From assembly GCA_003281185.1 (NCBI GenBank), contig QCCS01000002.1:62001-126000 (forward strand): a stretch of 64,000 bases of DNA. The letters are read 5' to 3'. Below, one piece after another: positions 47,277 through 53,337 of the stretch (position 1 is the stretch's first letter; each line of letters opens with the position of its first letter). Origin of the DNA: Prochlorococcus sp. AG-347-M15. GTDB lineage: Bacteria; Cyanobacteriota; Cyanobacteriia; PCC-6307; Cyanobiaceae. The notes under the pieces are model-generated. The model was given only the letters and a program-made list of their open reading frames with translations, searched no databases and had not been told where the DNA came from. Both the position numbers and the translations under genes were made by a program.

Positions 47277-47358
47277 GGGTCGGTGCCCGAGTGGTTAAAG
47301 GGGGCGGACTGTAAATCCGCTGGCTCTGCCTACGTTGGTTCAAATCCAACCCGGCCCA
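47277..47358 (+). tRNA. tRNA-Tyr(GTA)
   Basis: GGGTCGG...CCGGCCC acceptor pairing, long variable arm, anticodon loop ACTGTAAAT, T-arm GTTGGTTCAAATCCAAC. Confidence 0.95.
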
Positions 47359-47367
47359 CTTTGAATT

Positions 47368-47439
<72 letters not shown>

Positions 47440-47574
47440 TAGCCCAAAGCTTAACTACCGCATGGGTTTTAAAGAATTTTGAGAGAAGAAAACATACACT
47501 CCATTTCAAGTACTTATAAGTGAATATATGGACATAATAGCCAAATCGCACTAATATTCTCACTAATAGCACTT

Positions 47575-47949: not shown

Positions 47950-47999
47950 TAAGTTAACAAGTGTTTAAGAAATGATACGATTTTCTATATTTTTGAAAA

Positions 48000-49841
48000 T
48001 TAATCTGAAAGTTTGTACCATTCAGACTCAAGATTGGAGCCGGATTCTTTATCACAGCTTCCACCTAATGAATCAACAATAGTACAAGTGTTGTGAACTG
48101 CAACGCTTATAGTATTTCCTTTCATCATTAAACCATCAACGAATATTTGATTAGAAGCTAAAGGTACAGAACTTTGCCTACTTAAGTTTTTTAATAACTT
48201 AGACGCTGGTATTTGTTCTGGAAATATTGCCTTAACATTTTCCTCCTTTAGCATATTCAAAGTTGAACTAATGTTTTCAGGTCTTAAGCTTGATGAATCG
48301 CCAAGGAAGTCTAGTAAACTAACTGTCTCAAATCCGAATGCAGCACCATAATAATCCATAGCTTTGTGTTTTGAGACAAGTACCCTGTCTTGCTCAGGTA
48401 TTGTTGTTACCTGGTCAAGAATCCATTCATTTAGGCCACTGAGTAAAGATTCAGTTGAATCAATTCTTTCATTGATGGATTTTCTATCTTTTCTGTTAAA
48501 AATAGAGATATCCTTTTTTAAGTTTTTTGAGATTACTTTACTCATTTTTATAATGTTGGCTGGATCATGCCATACATGAGGGTCTAAACTTCCATGTCCA
48601 TGATGATGATGGTGGTGATGCCCATCTCCCTCATCTGGAACTTGCGCGATAGGCTCTACATCATTGTTGGATACGTCTTTGAAGAAGTGTTCATCTGCCT
48701 CAAATTCAAAAGGCATATGTTCTGTAAAGAATGTATATTTACCACTTTTTTTAATTTCTACATTAAATACTGTACTTTCTTTACCTTGATCAAAATTAAG
48801 TGATATTGCTTTTGAACTTGCTAATAAAACATCATTATCAGCCTTGTAGATAGAGTCATCGGATTCTAAAAGTTCCTTTGCAAGTTCTTCAGATTCTTCA
48901 ATATCTCCAGATTTGAGGATAACCATTTTCATAGCAGGATCTGCATATTCACCATCGACTTTTGCAAATGACCATTTATATGATCCTTCTTTAAGATCAA
49001 AAGTTCCTGCCCATTCAAAGCCTTCTGCGCCATGTTCACTGTGGCCTCCCATATCAGGTTCTTGAGCGACTGGTTCGATATCATTTTTAGCTAGATCTTT
49101 GAAGAAGTGTTCATCTGCTTCAAATTCAAAAGGCATATGTTCTGTAAAGAAAGCATACTTACCATCTTTTTTGATTTCTACATTAAATTCCGTGATATCT
49201 TTCTTTTGATCAAAATTTAAAACGAAGGCTTTGTCACTTGCAGAAAGAATACCATTATTGCTTTTTTCAATACTTTGATCAGATCCCAATAGCTCTTCTG
49301 CTAATTCTTCAGATAATTCAATGTCATCTGATTCAAGAATGACCATTTTCATGGCGGGGTCTGCATATTCACCATCGACTTTTGCAAATGACCATTTATA
49401 ATTTCCCGCTGTAAGTTCGAATAGGCCAGCCCATTCAAAAGCCCCTCCCTCTTCGCTAGAAGGATTCTCAACTTCGATGGCACTAACACCAACCACAACA
49501 GTATTTGACTTGTCTTCCCAGTTTTTCATAGTAGGAGTCATTTCTTTACCTAAAGTGAAAACTTTGTCTGCGCTATTTAATAATTGAGCTTGCCTTGGAT
49601 TGATCTTTAAGTCATGAACATCCTGTTTTCTATCTACTAAGCATGTAACTTTGTCAGAGGGTAGTGCAATTGATTTAACTAAATCACAAACTAGTGGTTC
49701 TACTGCAACATATGATTTGCCTTTAGCCAATACATCATGCCCAAAACCAGATAATATTAAGGATCCTGCGATTAAGGAGTTTTTGATAATTGACTTTGAT
49801 GGAGCTTTTTTATTAAATAAAACTTTTTGGAAAATTGACAT
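48000..49841 (-). CDS. znuA: zinc ABC transporter substrate-binding protein (ZnuA) with His-rich loop and duplicated insert domain
   Basis: VAVEPLVCDLVKSIALPSDKVTCLVDRKQDVHDLKINPRQAQLLNSADKVF; GHHHHHHHGHGSLDPHVWHDPANI; C-terminal FPEQIPASKLLKNLS. Confidence 0.92.
   Translation of the reverse strand: MSIFQKVLFNKKAPSKSIIKNSLIAGSLILSGFGHDVLAKGKSYVAVEPLVCDLVKSIALPSDKVTCLVDRKQDVHDLKINPRQAQLLNSADKVFTLGKEMTPTMKNWEDKSNTVVVGVSAIEVENPSSEEGGAFEWAGLFELTAGNYKWSFAKVDGEYADPAMKMVILESDDIELSEELAEELLGSDQSIEKSNNGILSASDKAFVLNFDQKKDITEFNVEIKKDGKYAFFTEHMPFEFEADEHFFKDLAKNDIEPVAQEPDMGGHSEHGAEGFEWAGTFDLKEGSYKWSFAKVDGEYADPAMKMVILKSGDIEESEELAKELLESDDSIYKADNDVLLASSKAISLNFDQGKESTVFNVEIKKSGKYTFFTEHMPFEFEADEHFFKDVSNNDVEPIAQVPDEGDGHHHHHHHGHGSLDPHVWHDPANIIKMSKVISKNLKKDISIFNRKDRKSINERIDSTESLLSGLNEWILDQVTTIPEQDRVLVSKHKAMDYYGAAFGFETVSLLDFLGDSSSLRPENISSTLNMLKEENVKAIFPEQIPASKLLKNLSRQSSVPLASNQIFVDGLMMKGNTISVAVHNTCTIVDSLGGSCDKESGSNLESEWYKLSD
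48636..49439 (-). repeat. tandem duplication inside ZnuA: repeat 1 = 49056-49439, repeat 2 = 48636-49019, period 420 bp (140 aa)
   Basis: FEWAG[LT]F[ED]L..G.YKWSFAKVDGEYADPAMKMVIL...FFTEHMPFEFEADEHFFKD aligned without gaps; 96/128 identical residues by hand count. Confidence 0.95.
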
Positions 49842-49861
49842 AAAAAACTTGTTGACATTTC

Positions 49862-49878
49862 AAAATGATAATCATTTT
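49862..49878. promoter_or_regulatory. predicted Zur box, znuA / znuC-remnant divergent promoter
   Basis: perfect palindrome AAAATGATAATCATTTT 20 bp upstream of the znuA ATG. Confidence 0.8.
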
Positions 49879-49925
49879 CATTATGTCTGACAACCAAAAT
49901 TATCAAATGTTATGAAAATAATACG

Positions 49926-50225
49926 CAACTTGTATTATTAGCCAAAACATTATTGTCTCCTGCAAAAATTTTCCTTCTTGATGAACCTTGTGCAGCTTTA
50001 GATCCACCTGCAAAGGAGGATTTTCTGAAAATTGTTCATCAACTTGCTGATGCTGGTCTTTCTTTAATGGTAAGCAGTCATCATTGGGGTGAGTCTCTAA
50101 ATAATTATGATCAAGTAATAGTCCTTGATAAAAGTGTTTTAGCAGCTGGTAGTCCTGATCAAATAAAAGGTAAATTAGAGGCAATAAAGATTAGCTCCGT
50201 AAACGAAAATAATTTTTGTGATTAG
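49926..50225 (+). pseudogene. 3' remnant of a ZnuC-type ABC ATPase
   Basis: in-frame QLVLLAKTLLSPAKIFLLDEPCAALDPPAKEDFLKIVHQLADAGLSLMVSSHHWGESLNNYDQVIVLDKSVLAAGSPDQIKGKL; Walker A and signature motif absent. Confidence 0.85.
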
Positions 50226-50238
50226 AAAATGTTCTTTT

Positions 50239-50634
50239 TTAATTCTGAGCTTGATAACAGTTTTGGCAAAGGCCGAAATATTCGAGTTGATGAAATAAAA
50301 GTTGAAACTTCCTTGTATTTTCTTTAGGTGTATGAATATCTTTTATCGGGCATCCTTCCATTTTTGATGTCTCACCACATTGAACACAGGTCAAATGATG
50401 AAAATCTCTATCTACGGGAGTGTAAAGAACCTCTCCTGTTGGGAGATGTCTAGAACGAATTAATCCTTGCTTTATCAAAATTTGTAGATTTCTATAAACA
50501 GTTGACAATCCCATGAGTTTTCCGCTTTCAATCAATTGTCTATGCAACTCTTGACCGCTCAGTTCATCTTCATATTTATTAAGTTCCTCGAGAAGTTGCT
50601 CTTGCCTTTTGGTAATGTCAGACTTAGTTACCAT
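50239..50634 (-). CDS. zur: Fur-family regulator, predicted Zur (ORF could extend to 50691)
   Basis: STVYRNLQILIKQGLIRSRHLPTGEVLYTP, HHLTCVQCGETSKMEGCPI, LCQNC; neighbours znuA. Confidence 0.88.
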   Translation of the reverse strand: MVTKSDITKRQEQLLEELNKYEDELSGQELHRQLIESGKLMGLSTVYRNLQILIKQGLIRSRHLPTGEVLYTPVDRDFHHLTCVQCGETSKMEGCPIKDIHTPKENTRKFQLLFHQLEYFGLCQNCYQAQN

Positions 50635-50725
50635 TGTTTTCAAAATCTTTTTTGTCCCATATTTTTGATCATACCTAATCATTCGAATCATGTCTTTTGT
50701 AACAGCTGGTGTCTCTTAAATCTAG

Positions 50726-51448
50726 TCAAAAATGTAATCCAAATCCTTTAGTTTTCTTTTCTGATTGATATCCAGCCCTCAAGAATTGAGTATTATCGGT
50801 CCCGACATCATAAAGAGTATAATTTTTACCTGCTCCAACACCAATGACAGCTTTTTGAGGAACCTTCTGCTCCTTCTTATGATTTCCGGTTAAATCGTGT
50901 ACTTCCGAATTAAGAATCCCCTCTGTTAATTCCAAATGAAATTGTTGTGTACTTCTTGCAGTAAATAATCTGTTTACTTGAAGACGTGTAAGTCTATCAA
51001 GGAGTGTTAGTGGCGGCGTATCTAGTGTTAAATTTTCGCCAACATCTTTTGAGCTTCCGTGAATCAAACCACAATCAAGTTCAACAAATCCAAATTGAAG
51101 TGCTGCTATCCAATCAAGAAATGATTTGTCTACAGCATTCGTAAGAGACTTAACTACTTCTTCACCCTTATTTATTCTCAAAGCTTCAGCTCTTTGATCA
51201 CCACGGTAACCACTTTCCAAGAGGATTTGTTCTTCCCACCAACCATATATGCACCATGGTTGTAAATCATTACTTTTTGGATTAATTAACCTATGGAGAA
51301 GCCTATTACAGTTTTTTTCAGGACCTATCATATCCCCCAAAACAAAAAGAGTTATATTACCAGGAGTTTTTTTTAAGTCTTTTTGAATAAGTTCATAAGT
51401 ATCTAGATCCCCTTTAAGACCACTTACGAGTGCCCAGCGTTCTATCAT
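50726..51448 (-). CDS. metallophosphoesterase-like protein (degenerate motifs)
   Basis: WALVSGLKGDLDTYELIQKDLKK...LFVLGDMIGP..., GLIHGSSKD; 4-nt overlap with the upstream metallophosphoesterase. Confidence 0.75.
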   Translation of the reverse strand: MIERWALVSGLKGDLDTYELIQKDLKKTPGNITLFVLGDMIGPEKNCNRLLHRLINPKSNDLQPWCIYGWWEEQILLESGYRGDQRAEALRINKGEEVVKSLTNAVDKSFLDWIAALQFGFVELDCGLIHGSSKDVGENLTLDTPPLTLLDRLTRLQVNRLFTARSTQQFHLELTEGILNSEVHDLTGNHKKEQKVPQKAVIGVGAGKNYTLYDVGTDNTQFLRAGYQSEKKTKGFGLHF

Positions 51449-52260
51449 CTTTCACAAACATGAGATGCATCTTCAGCTTGTTCTGCAAATTCGAATCCAT
51501 TTTTTAAACGCCATGCAAAAATCGGAGGAAGACCGGCATCTATTATTGCTTTACAAGTAAGTTCAATATCATATTCCACTTCTCTAATTTTTACTTCATT
51601 AGTGACATCGTTATATACAACATAAGTAGCTTTAGTTCCTCCATGTCTGGGCTCTCCAACTGAACCTGCATTTACTATTCTTCGCATCGGCAATTGAATT
51701 TCTTTTTCTTGAGTATCTTTGGGAACAGCATTTTTGATCTTTACAGCAATTAAACCATCTGCTAATTCGCGAATATAAGGTTGGTGAGTATGACCACAAA
51801 ATAGAATCTCTGCTCTGGCATTTTCAACTCTCTCAAGAGCTGCGAATGCATCCATATCGGGTAGAAGATATTCATGTTGACTATTAGGACTACCATGAAC
51901 AAAAAGACACTTATCTTTACGTATTGAGTAGGGTAGATTAGCTAGATAATCCTTATTTTCTTTAGTTAATTTATTTGTAGTCCATTGATGAGCAAAATGA
52001 CCTCTTTTTTCAGCAAGCTGAGAAGGATAACTACAATCGCAAGCATCTAATCCATCAATAACGTCTTCGTCCCAACATCCCTGACAAGTAGGAATTTGTT
52101 TATCTCTTATTAACTCAATAACCTCATTAGGTTGAGGACCATAACCCACTAGATCTCCAAGACAGGTAATATTTGTAATTCCTTGGAGTTCAATATCTTT
52201 TAAGACAGCCTCTACTGCAGGTAGATTTGCATGTAAACATGAGATGACAGCTTGATTCAT
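51445..52260 (-). CDS. metallophosphoesterase, YfcE/MJ0936-like
   Basis: VISCLHANLPAVEAVL, CLGDLVGYGPQPNEVI, FVHGSPNS, FCGHTHQPYIRE, VNAGSVGEPRHGG. Confidence 0.9.
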   Translation of the reverse strand: MNQAVISCLHANLPAVEAVLKDIELQGITNITCLGDLVGYGPQPNEVIELIRDKQIPTCQGCWDEDVIDGLDACDCSYPSQLAEKRGHFAHQWTTNKLTKENKDYLANLPYSIRKDKCLFVHGSPNSQHEYLLPDMDAFAALERVENARAEILFCGHTHQPYIRELADGLIAVKIKNAVPKDTQEKEIQLPMRRIVNAGSVGEPRHGGTKATYVVYNDVTNEVKIREVEYDIELTCKAIIDAGLPPIFAWRLKNGFEFAEQAEDASHVCER

Positions 52261-52267
52261 TTTTAAG

Positions 52268-53050
52268 TTAACGGCGAGCAGTTTGTAATTGTGAATTTCT
52301 AAGTGAAGCTTGATGATGATCTAGTACAGCATCATTAAGAAGGCAATTATGAATCGTTACTTTTATTGACTCGAAGTTTAAATTTTTCCCTTGTATAACA
52401 ATTTCAGAACATCTTTCTGGTCTTCCATTAAGAGGGGCAACTTGGTTTAATGTTTGATATTGAGATCCTTGCTGACTGACTATCCAATTAAACAAGATGT
52501 AACGCCCATCAGGTAAGTTCATTAATGCTTTTGCTCTATATACATCCCCATAAGCACCATTAACTAATTCAAACCAAAAAGTATTCAAGCTTGCAGGATC
52601 CCAAATATGCTTTTGAAGATCAAGACTTATTGATTCAATTGCTTTAAAATCTAAAGTATCTCTAATTGATAATTCTGGATCTCTACCAAAATGAAGATAT
52701 CTATTTGGCTGGAGATTATATTTTTCAAGTTCATTAATAATTCTCAGATCAACTCCATTAATACCTTGAGATTTAGGTGTAAAAAATTGTGGAAATTCAA
52801 TAATAATTAAAATGTTTTCTTTATCTTTCTCTGATATTGAGTTTGAAATAGATAAGTCTAATAAGTTAGGAATTTGATCTTTCAAAAAAGCAAAATCAAT
52901 TTTTGAATTTATAGCTTGCTCTAAATTAATTTCGGAATATCCTCCAAGACGTAAGTAACCACAATTACCAGAATAATTCTTAAAAGTATTTAGTATCCAA
53001 TTTGTCTTACCGCATCCTGGCGAACCTGATATTAAACAGACTTGACTCAT
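52268..53050 (-). CDS. CobW-like P-loop GTPase/metallochaperone
   Basis: LISGSPGCGKTNWILNTF Walker A; C-terminal CobW-like PDGRYILFNWIVSQQGSQYQTLNQVAPLNGRPERCSEIVIQGKNLN. Confidence 0.8.
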   Translation of the reverse strand: MSQVCLISGSPGCGKTNWILNTFKNYSGNCGYLRLGGYSEINLEQAINSKIDFAFLKDQIPNLLDLSISNSISEKDKENILIIIEFPQFFTPKSQGINGVDLRIINELEKYNLQPNRYLHFGRDPELSIRDTLDFKAIESISLDLQKHIWDPASLNTFWFELVNGAYGDVYRAKALMNLPDGRYILFNWIVSQQGSQYQTLNQVAPLNGRPERCSEIVIQGKNLNFESIKVTIHNCLLNDAVLDHHQASLRNSQLQTARR

Positions 53051-53092
53051 AAAAAAAATACTACCTAATGTTTAAAATTTACATCAAAATGA

Positions 53093-53107
53093 AAATGAAA
53101 ATCATTT
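53093..53107. promoter_or_regulatory. predicted second Zur box upstream of the CobW operon
   Basis: AAATGA-AAA-TCATTT, same half-sites and spacing as 49863-49877. Confidence 0.7.
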
Positions 53108-53337
53108 CTGTTTTGGATTTTAAATATTTGTTTTGAAATTTAAGTTTAAAAAATAAGAAATCAAGTACCCATTAATGAATTGTTTCTTCTAACATTAATC
53201 ACTTTGCTTTTTATTTTTATTTCTTTCAAATAAATAAGAATTTAAAGAAATTATCCAGCGATTAAATTGATAACCTTCTGAAATGCTTGTTATTGAATTA
53301 AAAAATAATTAATCTAGGTACTAAGTGGATTTGCAAA

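Follow-up and report, generated by a model that had tools for sequence, protein, structure and literature searches.

The zinc-related genes in the 64,000-nucleotide stretch of Prochlorococcus DNA analyzed here (the window) are explained in two parts, a reading to which we give a probability of about 0.75: a zinc-starvation operon of three genes, cobW', MPE1, and MPE2 (the trio), and a partial second copy of the znu locus that, in this genome alone, came to lie after MPE2. Open-ocean water holds little zinc, and the ways in which picocyanobacteria ration it are still to be worked out; among marine Zur regulons, the one studied best, that of Synechococcus sp. WH8102, is small, and the role of Zur-controlled COG0523 relatives is unsolved. 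The trio is a concrete and testable candidate for a zinc-handling machine, conserved from Prochlorococcus to cyanobacteria with much larger genomes and with cysteines that invariably replace residues of a metal site otherwise of standard form, while the znuA and zur copy behind the trio, peculiar to this strain, suggests one way in which a regulator gene can fall under the promoter of its own target operon.

The window belongs to a Prochlorococcus-type draft genome of 1.48 Mb in 38 contigs, which is 87% complete, and the closest named records found for MPE2 were from Prochlorococcus. A preliminary description of this DNA had reported a co-directional run of CobW, two metallophosphoesterases with a 4-nt overlap of their genes (here MPE1 and MPE2), and Zur, and the run is as described (Table 1). 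It had missed the truncation of znuC', the second zur and complete znu locus elsewhere in the genome, and the non-canonical motifs of the CobW-like and metallophosphoesterase proteins.

Table 1. Features of the zinc-related region, in window coordinates
Feature	Position	Strand	Description
znuA'	48000-49841	-	zinc-binding protein gene; PF01297, 1.2e-40; two copies of an inserted domain
znuC'	49914-50225	+	ATPase gene remnant; 5' part with P-loop and LSGGQ deleted
zur'	50239-50691	-	second zinc-regulator copy; FUR, 1.9e-20; SynZur zinc ligands kept
MPE2	50726-51448	-	degenerate MPE1 relative; most metal ligands lost
MPE1	51445-52260	-	calcineurin-like phosphoesterase family; PF12850, 3.7e-20; Cys8/Cys62/Trp63 replace Asp/Asn/His
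cobW'	52268-53050	-	short COG0523/G3E-like P-loop protein, 260 aa, no CxCC
Zur-box palindrome AAATGATAATCATTT	49863-49877	.	exact; between znuA' and znuC'
Zur-box palindrome AAATGAAAATCATTT	53093-53107	.	exact; 42 bp upstream of the cobW' start (53050)
Partial second znu locus copy, whole	47966-50714	.	boundaries from blastn

Distribution of the trio and motifs of its proteins

At the family level, cobW' was found in 57 and MPE2 in 59 of 151 genomes, and since the trio is present in only some strains of the genus, it is an accessory set there. Class-wide, both cobW' and MPE2 occurred in 79 of 242 Cyanobacteriia genomes (31.6 expected if the two were independent) and lay within 3.5 kb of each other in 70 of those 79. 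Twenty class-wide loci were read, picked for adjacency of cobW' and MPE2 and not for their neighbors, and 18 of them carried zinc-linked neighbors (znuABC, zur, COG0523, thrS2, folE, hisI, or hemB2). Cyanobium-type genomes place the trio after a true COG0523 gene, with znuABC and a second Zur-like gene within ~10 kb of it in several, and in one distant cyanobacterium (locus L219) a Zur box, zur, cobW', MPE1, and MPE2 form a co-directional run.

Other genes also recur at these loci. A gene for a FAD/NAD(P)-binding protein (PF13454) stands beside the trio or the Zur gene at most wide trio loci, often divergent from cobW' across the Zur box (e.g., L207:12144-13370, L219:8595-9800, and L181:17281-18519). 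Separately, Cyanobium-type genomes have a gene for an alpha/beta-hydrolase that adjoins or overlaps the end of MPE2 (L181:8380-9186, L176:9686-10588, and L177:9458-10357) and may be a fourth member of the operon.

Of the trio proteins, MPE1 shows the strongest conservation, and its nearest solved structure, 3rqz, aligned over its whole length (E 1.2e-31). The GD, HG, and GHTH motifs of the fold are present, and H10, D36, H122, H157, and H159 are kept, with D36, H122, H157, and H159 invariant. In all 43 readable sequences, the aspartate of DxH is replaced by Cys8 (CxH) and the Asn-His of GNHD by Cys62-Trp63 (GCWD), and a CxC pair (C74, C76) is invariant, as is a C-terminal HxC; the solved relative 3rqz keeps SDVH and GNHD. 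By the known layout of the fold, the site would hold one cysteine ligand per metal. MPE2 matched no Pfam family, and a solved-structure search with it gave nothing useful, while its profile matched that of MPE1 with 98.1% probability (E 6.6e-14), indicating a related fold. Its metal-ligand motifs retain just D39, the GD aspartate, and one histidine, H130.

The third protein, cobW', has a P-loop of the GPPGCGKT type, with GKT invariant in 43 readable sequences, and the CxCC metal motif was found in 0 of 44 sequences. In the window protein, the ETTG and NKxD motifs of the GTPases were absent by reading, the GTPase domain PF02492 was not matched, and CobW_C scored 21.7 bits, just under the cut-off of 22. 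Its profile matched true COG0523 with 64% probability, and its predicted structure (pLDDT 87.5) had Escherichia coli YjiA as best fold match (E 7.5e-7) at a low TM-score of 0.33; searching solved structures by sequence returned weak P-loop ATPase matches only.

We tentatively propose that the trio products act together in zinc allocation, a proposal that we put somewhat below even odds. MPE1 would be a subunit binding zinc or another thiophilic metal in a two-metal phosphoesterase site with one cysteine at each metal, MPE2 would be its non-catalytic partner, and cobW' would be a nucleotide-driven switch of the G3E type, loading or unloading MPE1 or passing metal on to a client. Bolder, and more doubtful, is the notion that the three make up a zinc-allocation complex not described before and spread across the cyanobacterial class, its zinc-binding subunit being a phosphoesterase fold remodeled with cysteines and its G3E switch protein, which lacks CxCC, serving that subunit. 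The earlier suggestion of a CobW-type GTPase supplying metal to paired metallophosphoesterases needs rewording, given a cobW' lacking CxCC, a cysteine-substituted MPE1, and an MPE2 with most ligands lost.

The trio could instead be a zinc-sparing enzyme set, in which MPE1 replaces a zinc-dependent phosphoesterase by using another metal, much as Zur-controlled paralogues of the HemB2 type and others are thought to do, and the presence of hemB2, thrS2, and folE among its neighbors fits such a role. However, cysteine ligands would in general favor zinc rather than its sparing, the catalytic histidine of GNHD is tryptophan in 43 of 43 readable MPE1 sequences, and most ligands of MPE2 are lost. Paralogues that do without zinc are a recognized feature of Zur regulons (PMC6103462), but on balance we consider zinc sparing by the trio unlikely.

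A partial second znu locus behind MPE2

The intact znu locus of this genome, on contig 10, has the order WD40 protein, COG0523, znuA, Zur box, znuC, zur, znuB, a layout shared by the genus relatives that were read and by most Prochlorococcus-type ones farther off; znuC and znuB flank zur in most of the relatives that were read. Part of this locus is present a second time in the window, as znuA', the broken znuC', and zur'. Relative to contig 10, ~521 bp covering the 5' part of znuC is deleted at ~49936-49939, with ~4 bp of shared sequence at the internal joint. The copy stops in the opening codons of znuB, 23 bp upstream of where zur starts. The DNA of 47966-49939 is 97.2% identical to the znuA region of strain G067 (blastn), and over 49936-50714 the identity to canonical znuC-3'/zur is 84-87%; compared with the same cell's own znu locus, the copy is 77-87% identical.

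The trio region (50738-53152) is 97-98% identical to strains that have no zur behind the trio, and a 341-bp probe spanning the MPE2-zur' junction matched at full length in 1 of 266 genus genomes, namely this one, and in 0 of the 265 others; in other genus genomes, its two halves match apart. The copied znu segment, the trio without zur elsewhere, and the unique junction together mean that the four-gene run is a local juxtaposition. The CobW-MPE-MPE-Zur order, whose conservation across picocyanobacteria the preliminary description had put forward for checking, is thus not conserved, and a conserved system of these four genes was rejected.

The junction might also be an artifact, with the second znu copy joined to MPE2 by an assembly or amplification chimera and the trio ending at MPE2 in this cell too. 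Such an origin would be in keeping with a junction seen in a single draft genome (38 contigs, 87% complete) and with the ~4 bp shared at the internal deletion joint, but the copy has 77-87% DNA identity to the cell's own locus versus 97% to the znuA of another strain, so that it is no same-cell duplicate, and it lies inside a 144.5-kb contig, with a listed contamination of 0.13%. We therefore think a chimera improbable and keep to a genuine second copy of part of the znu locus.

The zur' gene looks functional. Its Fur-family fold is recognized (PF01475, E 1.9e-20; best solved match 7ne9, E 8.2e-42), and all eight aligned ligand residues are present, comprising the structural Cys4 and the sensory D77, H79, C95, and H115; the 7ne9 numbering agrees with the zinc ligands reported for the WH8102 Zur structure. 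Compared with the contig 10 zur, zur' is 90% identical, and 32 of the 48 differences fall at third codon positions. Because zur' has lost the DNA natively upstream of it, and the interval from MPE2 to zur', now 34 bp, showed no strong terminator, read-through from the trio promoter into zur' is likely, and the arrival of segment 47966-50714 would have placed zur' under the trio's driver. Autoregulation, which had been proposed for the operon as such, is plausible in this genome, though unproven, because of that lost upstream DNA and the 34-bp spacing, and would then be a strain-specific capture, although L219 has its run of Zur box, zur, cobW', MPE1, and MPE2.

Several further features of the znu loci are recorded here. 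Genes for tRNA-Tyr and tRNA-Thr (47277-47440) lie ~0.5 kb from the edge of the copied segment, a possible insertion hot spot; mobile tycheposon islands were considered because of these adjoining tRNA genes, and a literature search for them was without result. Genome G016 of the same family also has two znu/zur loci (L092 and L093), at one of which ZnuA lacks its inserted domain and the COG0523 gene is truncated. This inserted domain (FEWxG...DPxM...FTxHxxEF) is present twice in ZnuA' (48627-49445) and once in the intact ZnuA, and the cytoplasmic COG0523 protein encoded at the znu locus contains it too (contig 10 locus instances L053:4019-4438 and L053:2280-2675). It matched no Pfam family at the cut-off, and its structural model (pLDDT 82) matched no solved fold at E below 0.001. 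Next to COG0523 and znu genes, WD40-repeat proteins turn up repeatedly (L053:922-1992 on contig 10, L215, L219, and L221).

Candidate Zur boxes and probable zinc control of the trio

The two palindromes previously noticed upstream of znuA and of the CobW-like gene are exact and correctly placed, the latter at a distance of 42 bp. They are the only exact AAATGANNNTCATTT matches in the window, where dinucleotide shuffles led us to expect 0.02. The box AAATGATAATCATTT lies 21 bp upstream of the znuA-like start at 49841 and overlaps with the -10 hexamer of the highest-ranking promoter-like match for znuA'. A pattern search with the motif, as the preliminary description had suggested, returned four exact matches genome-wide, three of them intergenic and all at zinc genes (znuA'/znuC', cobW', and the intact znuA/znuC on contig 10), and the fourth within a DAHP-synthase-like coding sequence. 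One-mismatch boxes were not counted as extra regulon members, with 47 sites versus 32 for a backwards-pattern control; among the surroundings read, most were within ORFs and the few intergenic ones had no adjoining zinc gene.

In nearly all HL loci, a Zur box stands 38-51 bp ahead of cobW', as it does in many diverged genomes with otherwise altered flanks, and its position is maintained across Prochlorococcus and in some marine Synechococcus-type genomes. No box was found directly upstream of cobW' at six Cyanobium-type loci, because cobW' there follows the COG0523 gene. The 20 class-wide trio loci contain 42 TGATAATNATTATCA-like (Zur-type) sites versus 2.35 expected, several of them directly upstream of cobW', and the trio promoter therefore carries a conserved candidate Zur box, the feature that marks members of the cyanobacterial Zur regulon. 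Because the box is position-conserved in relatives and the trio's class-wide linkage to zinc genes comes with 42 boxes against 2.35, the view that the boxes behave as Zur boxes and that the trio operon is part of the zinc regulon is supported at the sequence level. The zinc regulon as first described accordingly stands for the boxes and the trio, and falls for Zur as a conserved part of the operon.

The cobW'-MPE1-MPE2 set is, on these grounds, very probably an ancient, Zur-controlled zinc-starvation operon. Zinc-loaded Zur would bind the palindrome at 53093-53107 and block transcription of the trio, and zinc depletion would derepress it together with the znu uptake genes.

A different role under zinc or folate stress can be imagined, in which the MPE pair acts on a nucleotide signal (e.g., a ZTP-like one) with cobW' as nucleotide-binding partner. 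Nucleotides are often the substrates of MPE relatives, and folE and hisI recur beside the trio class-wide, but no folE or hisI link was seen at the window and the catalytic residues of both MPE1 and MPE2 are altered, leaving this role with a slim chance. Iron control of the trio through Fur rather than Zur sites, for which the resemblance of ATGATAATCAT to the Fur box core of other bacteria might speak, is very improbable given that znu genes and cobW' account for all three exact sites that are intergenic, that one box lies between znuA and znuC, and that similar boxes recur at zinc genes class-wide.

Comparison with known systems

In the open-access literature, we found no paper joining Zur or COG0523 with a phosphoesterase or metallophosphoesterase, and a prior description is possible. 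The nearest regulatory parallel is Synechococcus sp. WH8102 (SynZur, SYNW2401), where, in the portion of the report drawn on here, a single Zur box lies between the divergent znuA and znuC and overlaps the -10 element, and zur is neither zinc- nor self-regulated (PMC9337993). The window genome shares with it a matching type of Zur, identical in its zinc ligands, and a box between znuA and znuC that overlaps the -10 element, but differs in the second zur' behind the trio; moreover, that portion of the report names no CobW-MPE-MPE operon in the WH8102 Zur regulon (PMC9337993).

The Zur regulon of Anabaena PCC 7120 includes the COG0523 genes all1751, all4722, and alr1197 together with hemB2, thrS2, and folE2 (PMC6103462). 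The class-wide neighbors of the trio (COG0523, thrS2, folE, hemB2, and znu) are the same kinds of genes, whereas the table of that review names no metallophosphoesterase (PMC6103462). A Zur site before a Prochlorococcus COG0523 gene was predicted in 2009 (PMC2770081).

Among protein families, cobW' resembles the COG0523/G3E proteins (YjiA, YeiR, and CobW; PMC2770081) in its P-loop and its best fold match to YjiA, and it has a possible CobW_C-like domain, but it is shorter, is without CxCC, ETTG, and NKxD, and is not recognized by PF02492. Within the calcineurin-like metallophosphoesterases (PF12850; 3rqz), MPE2 stands apart by the loss of most ligands, and MPE1, which aligns along its whole length, is set off by CxH in place of DxH, GCWD in place of GNHD, and the added CxC and C-terminal HxC.
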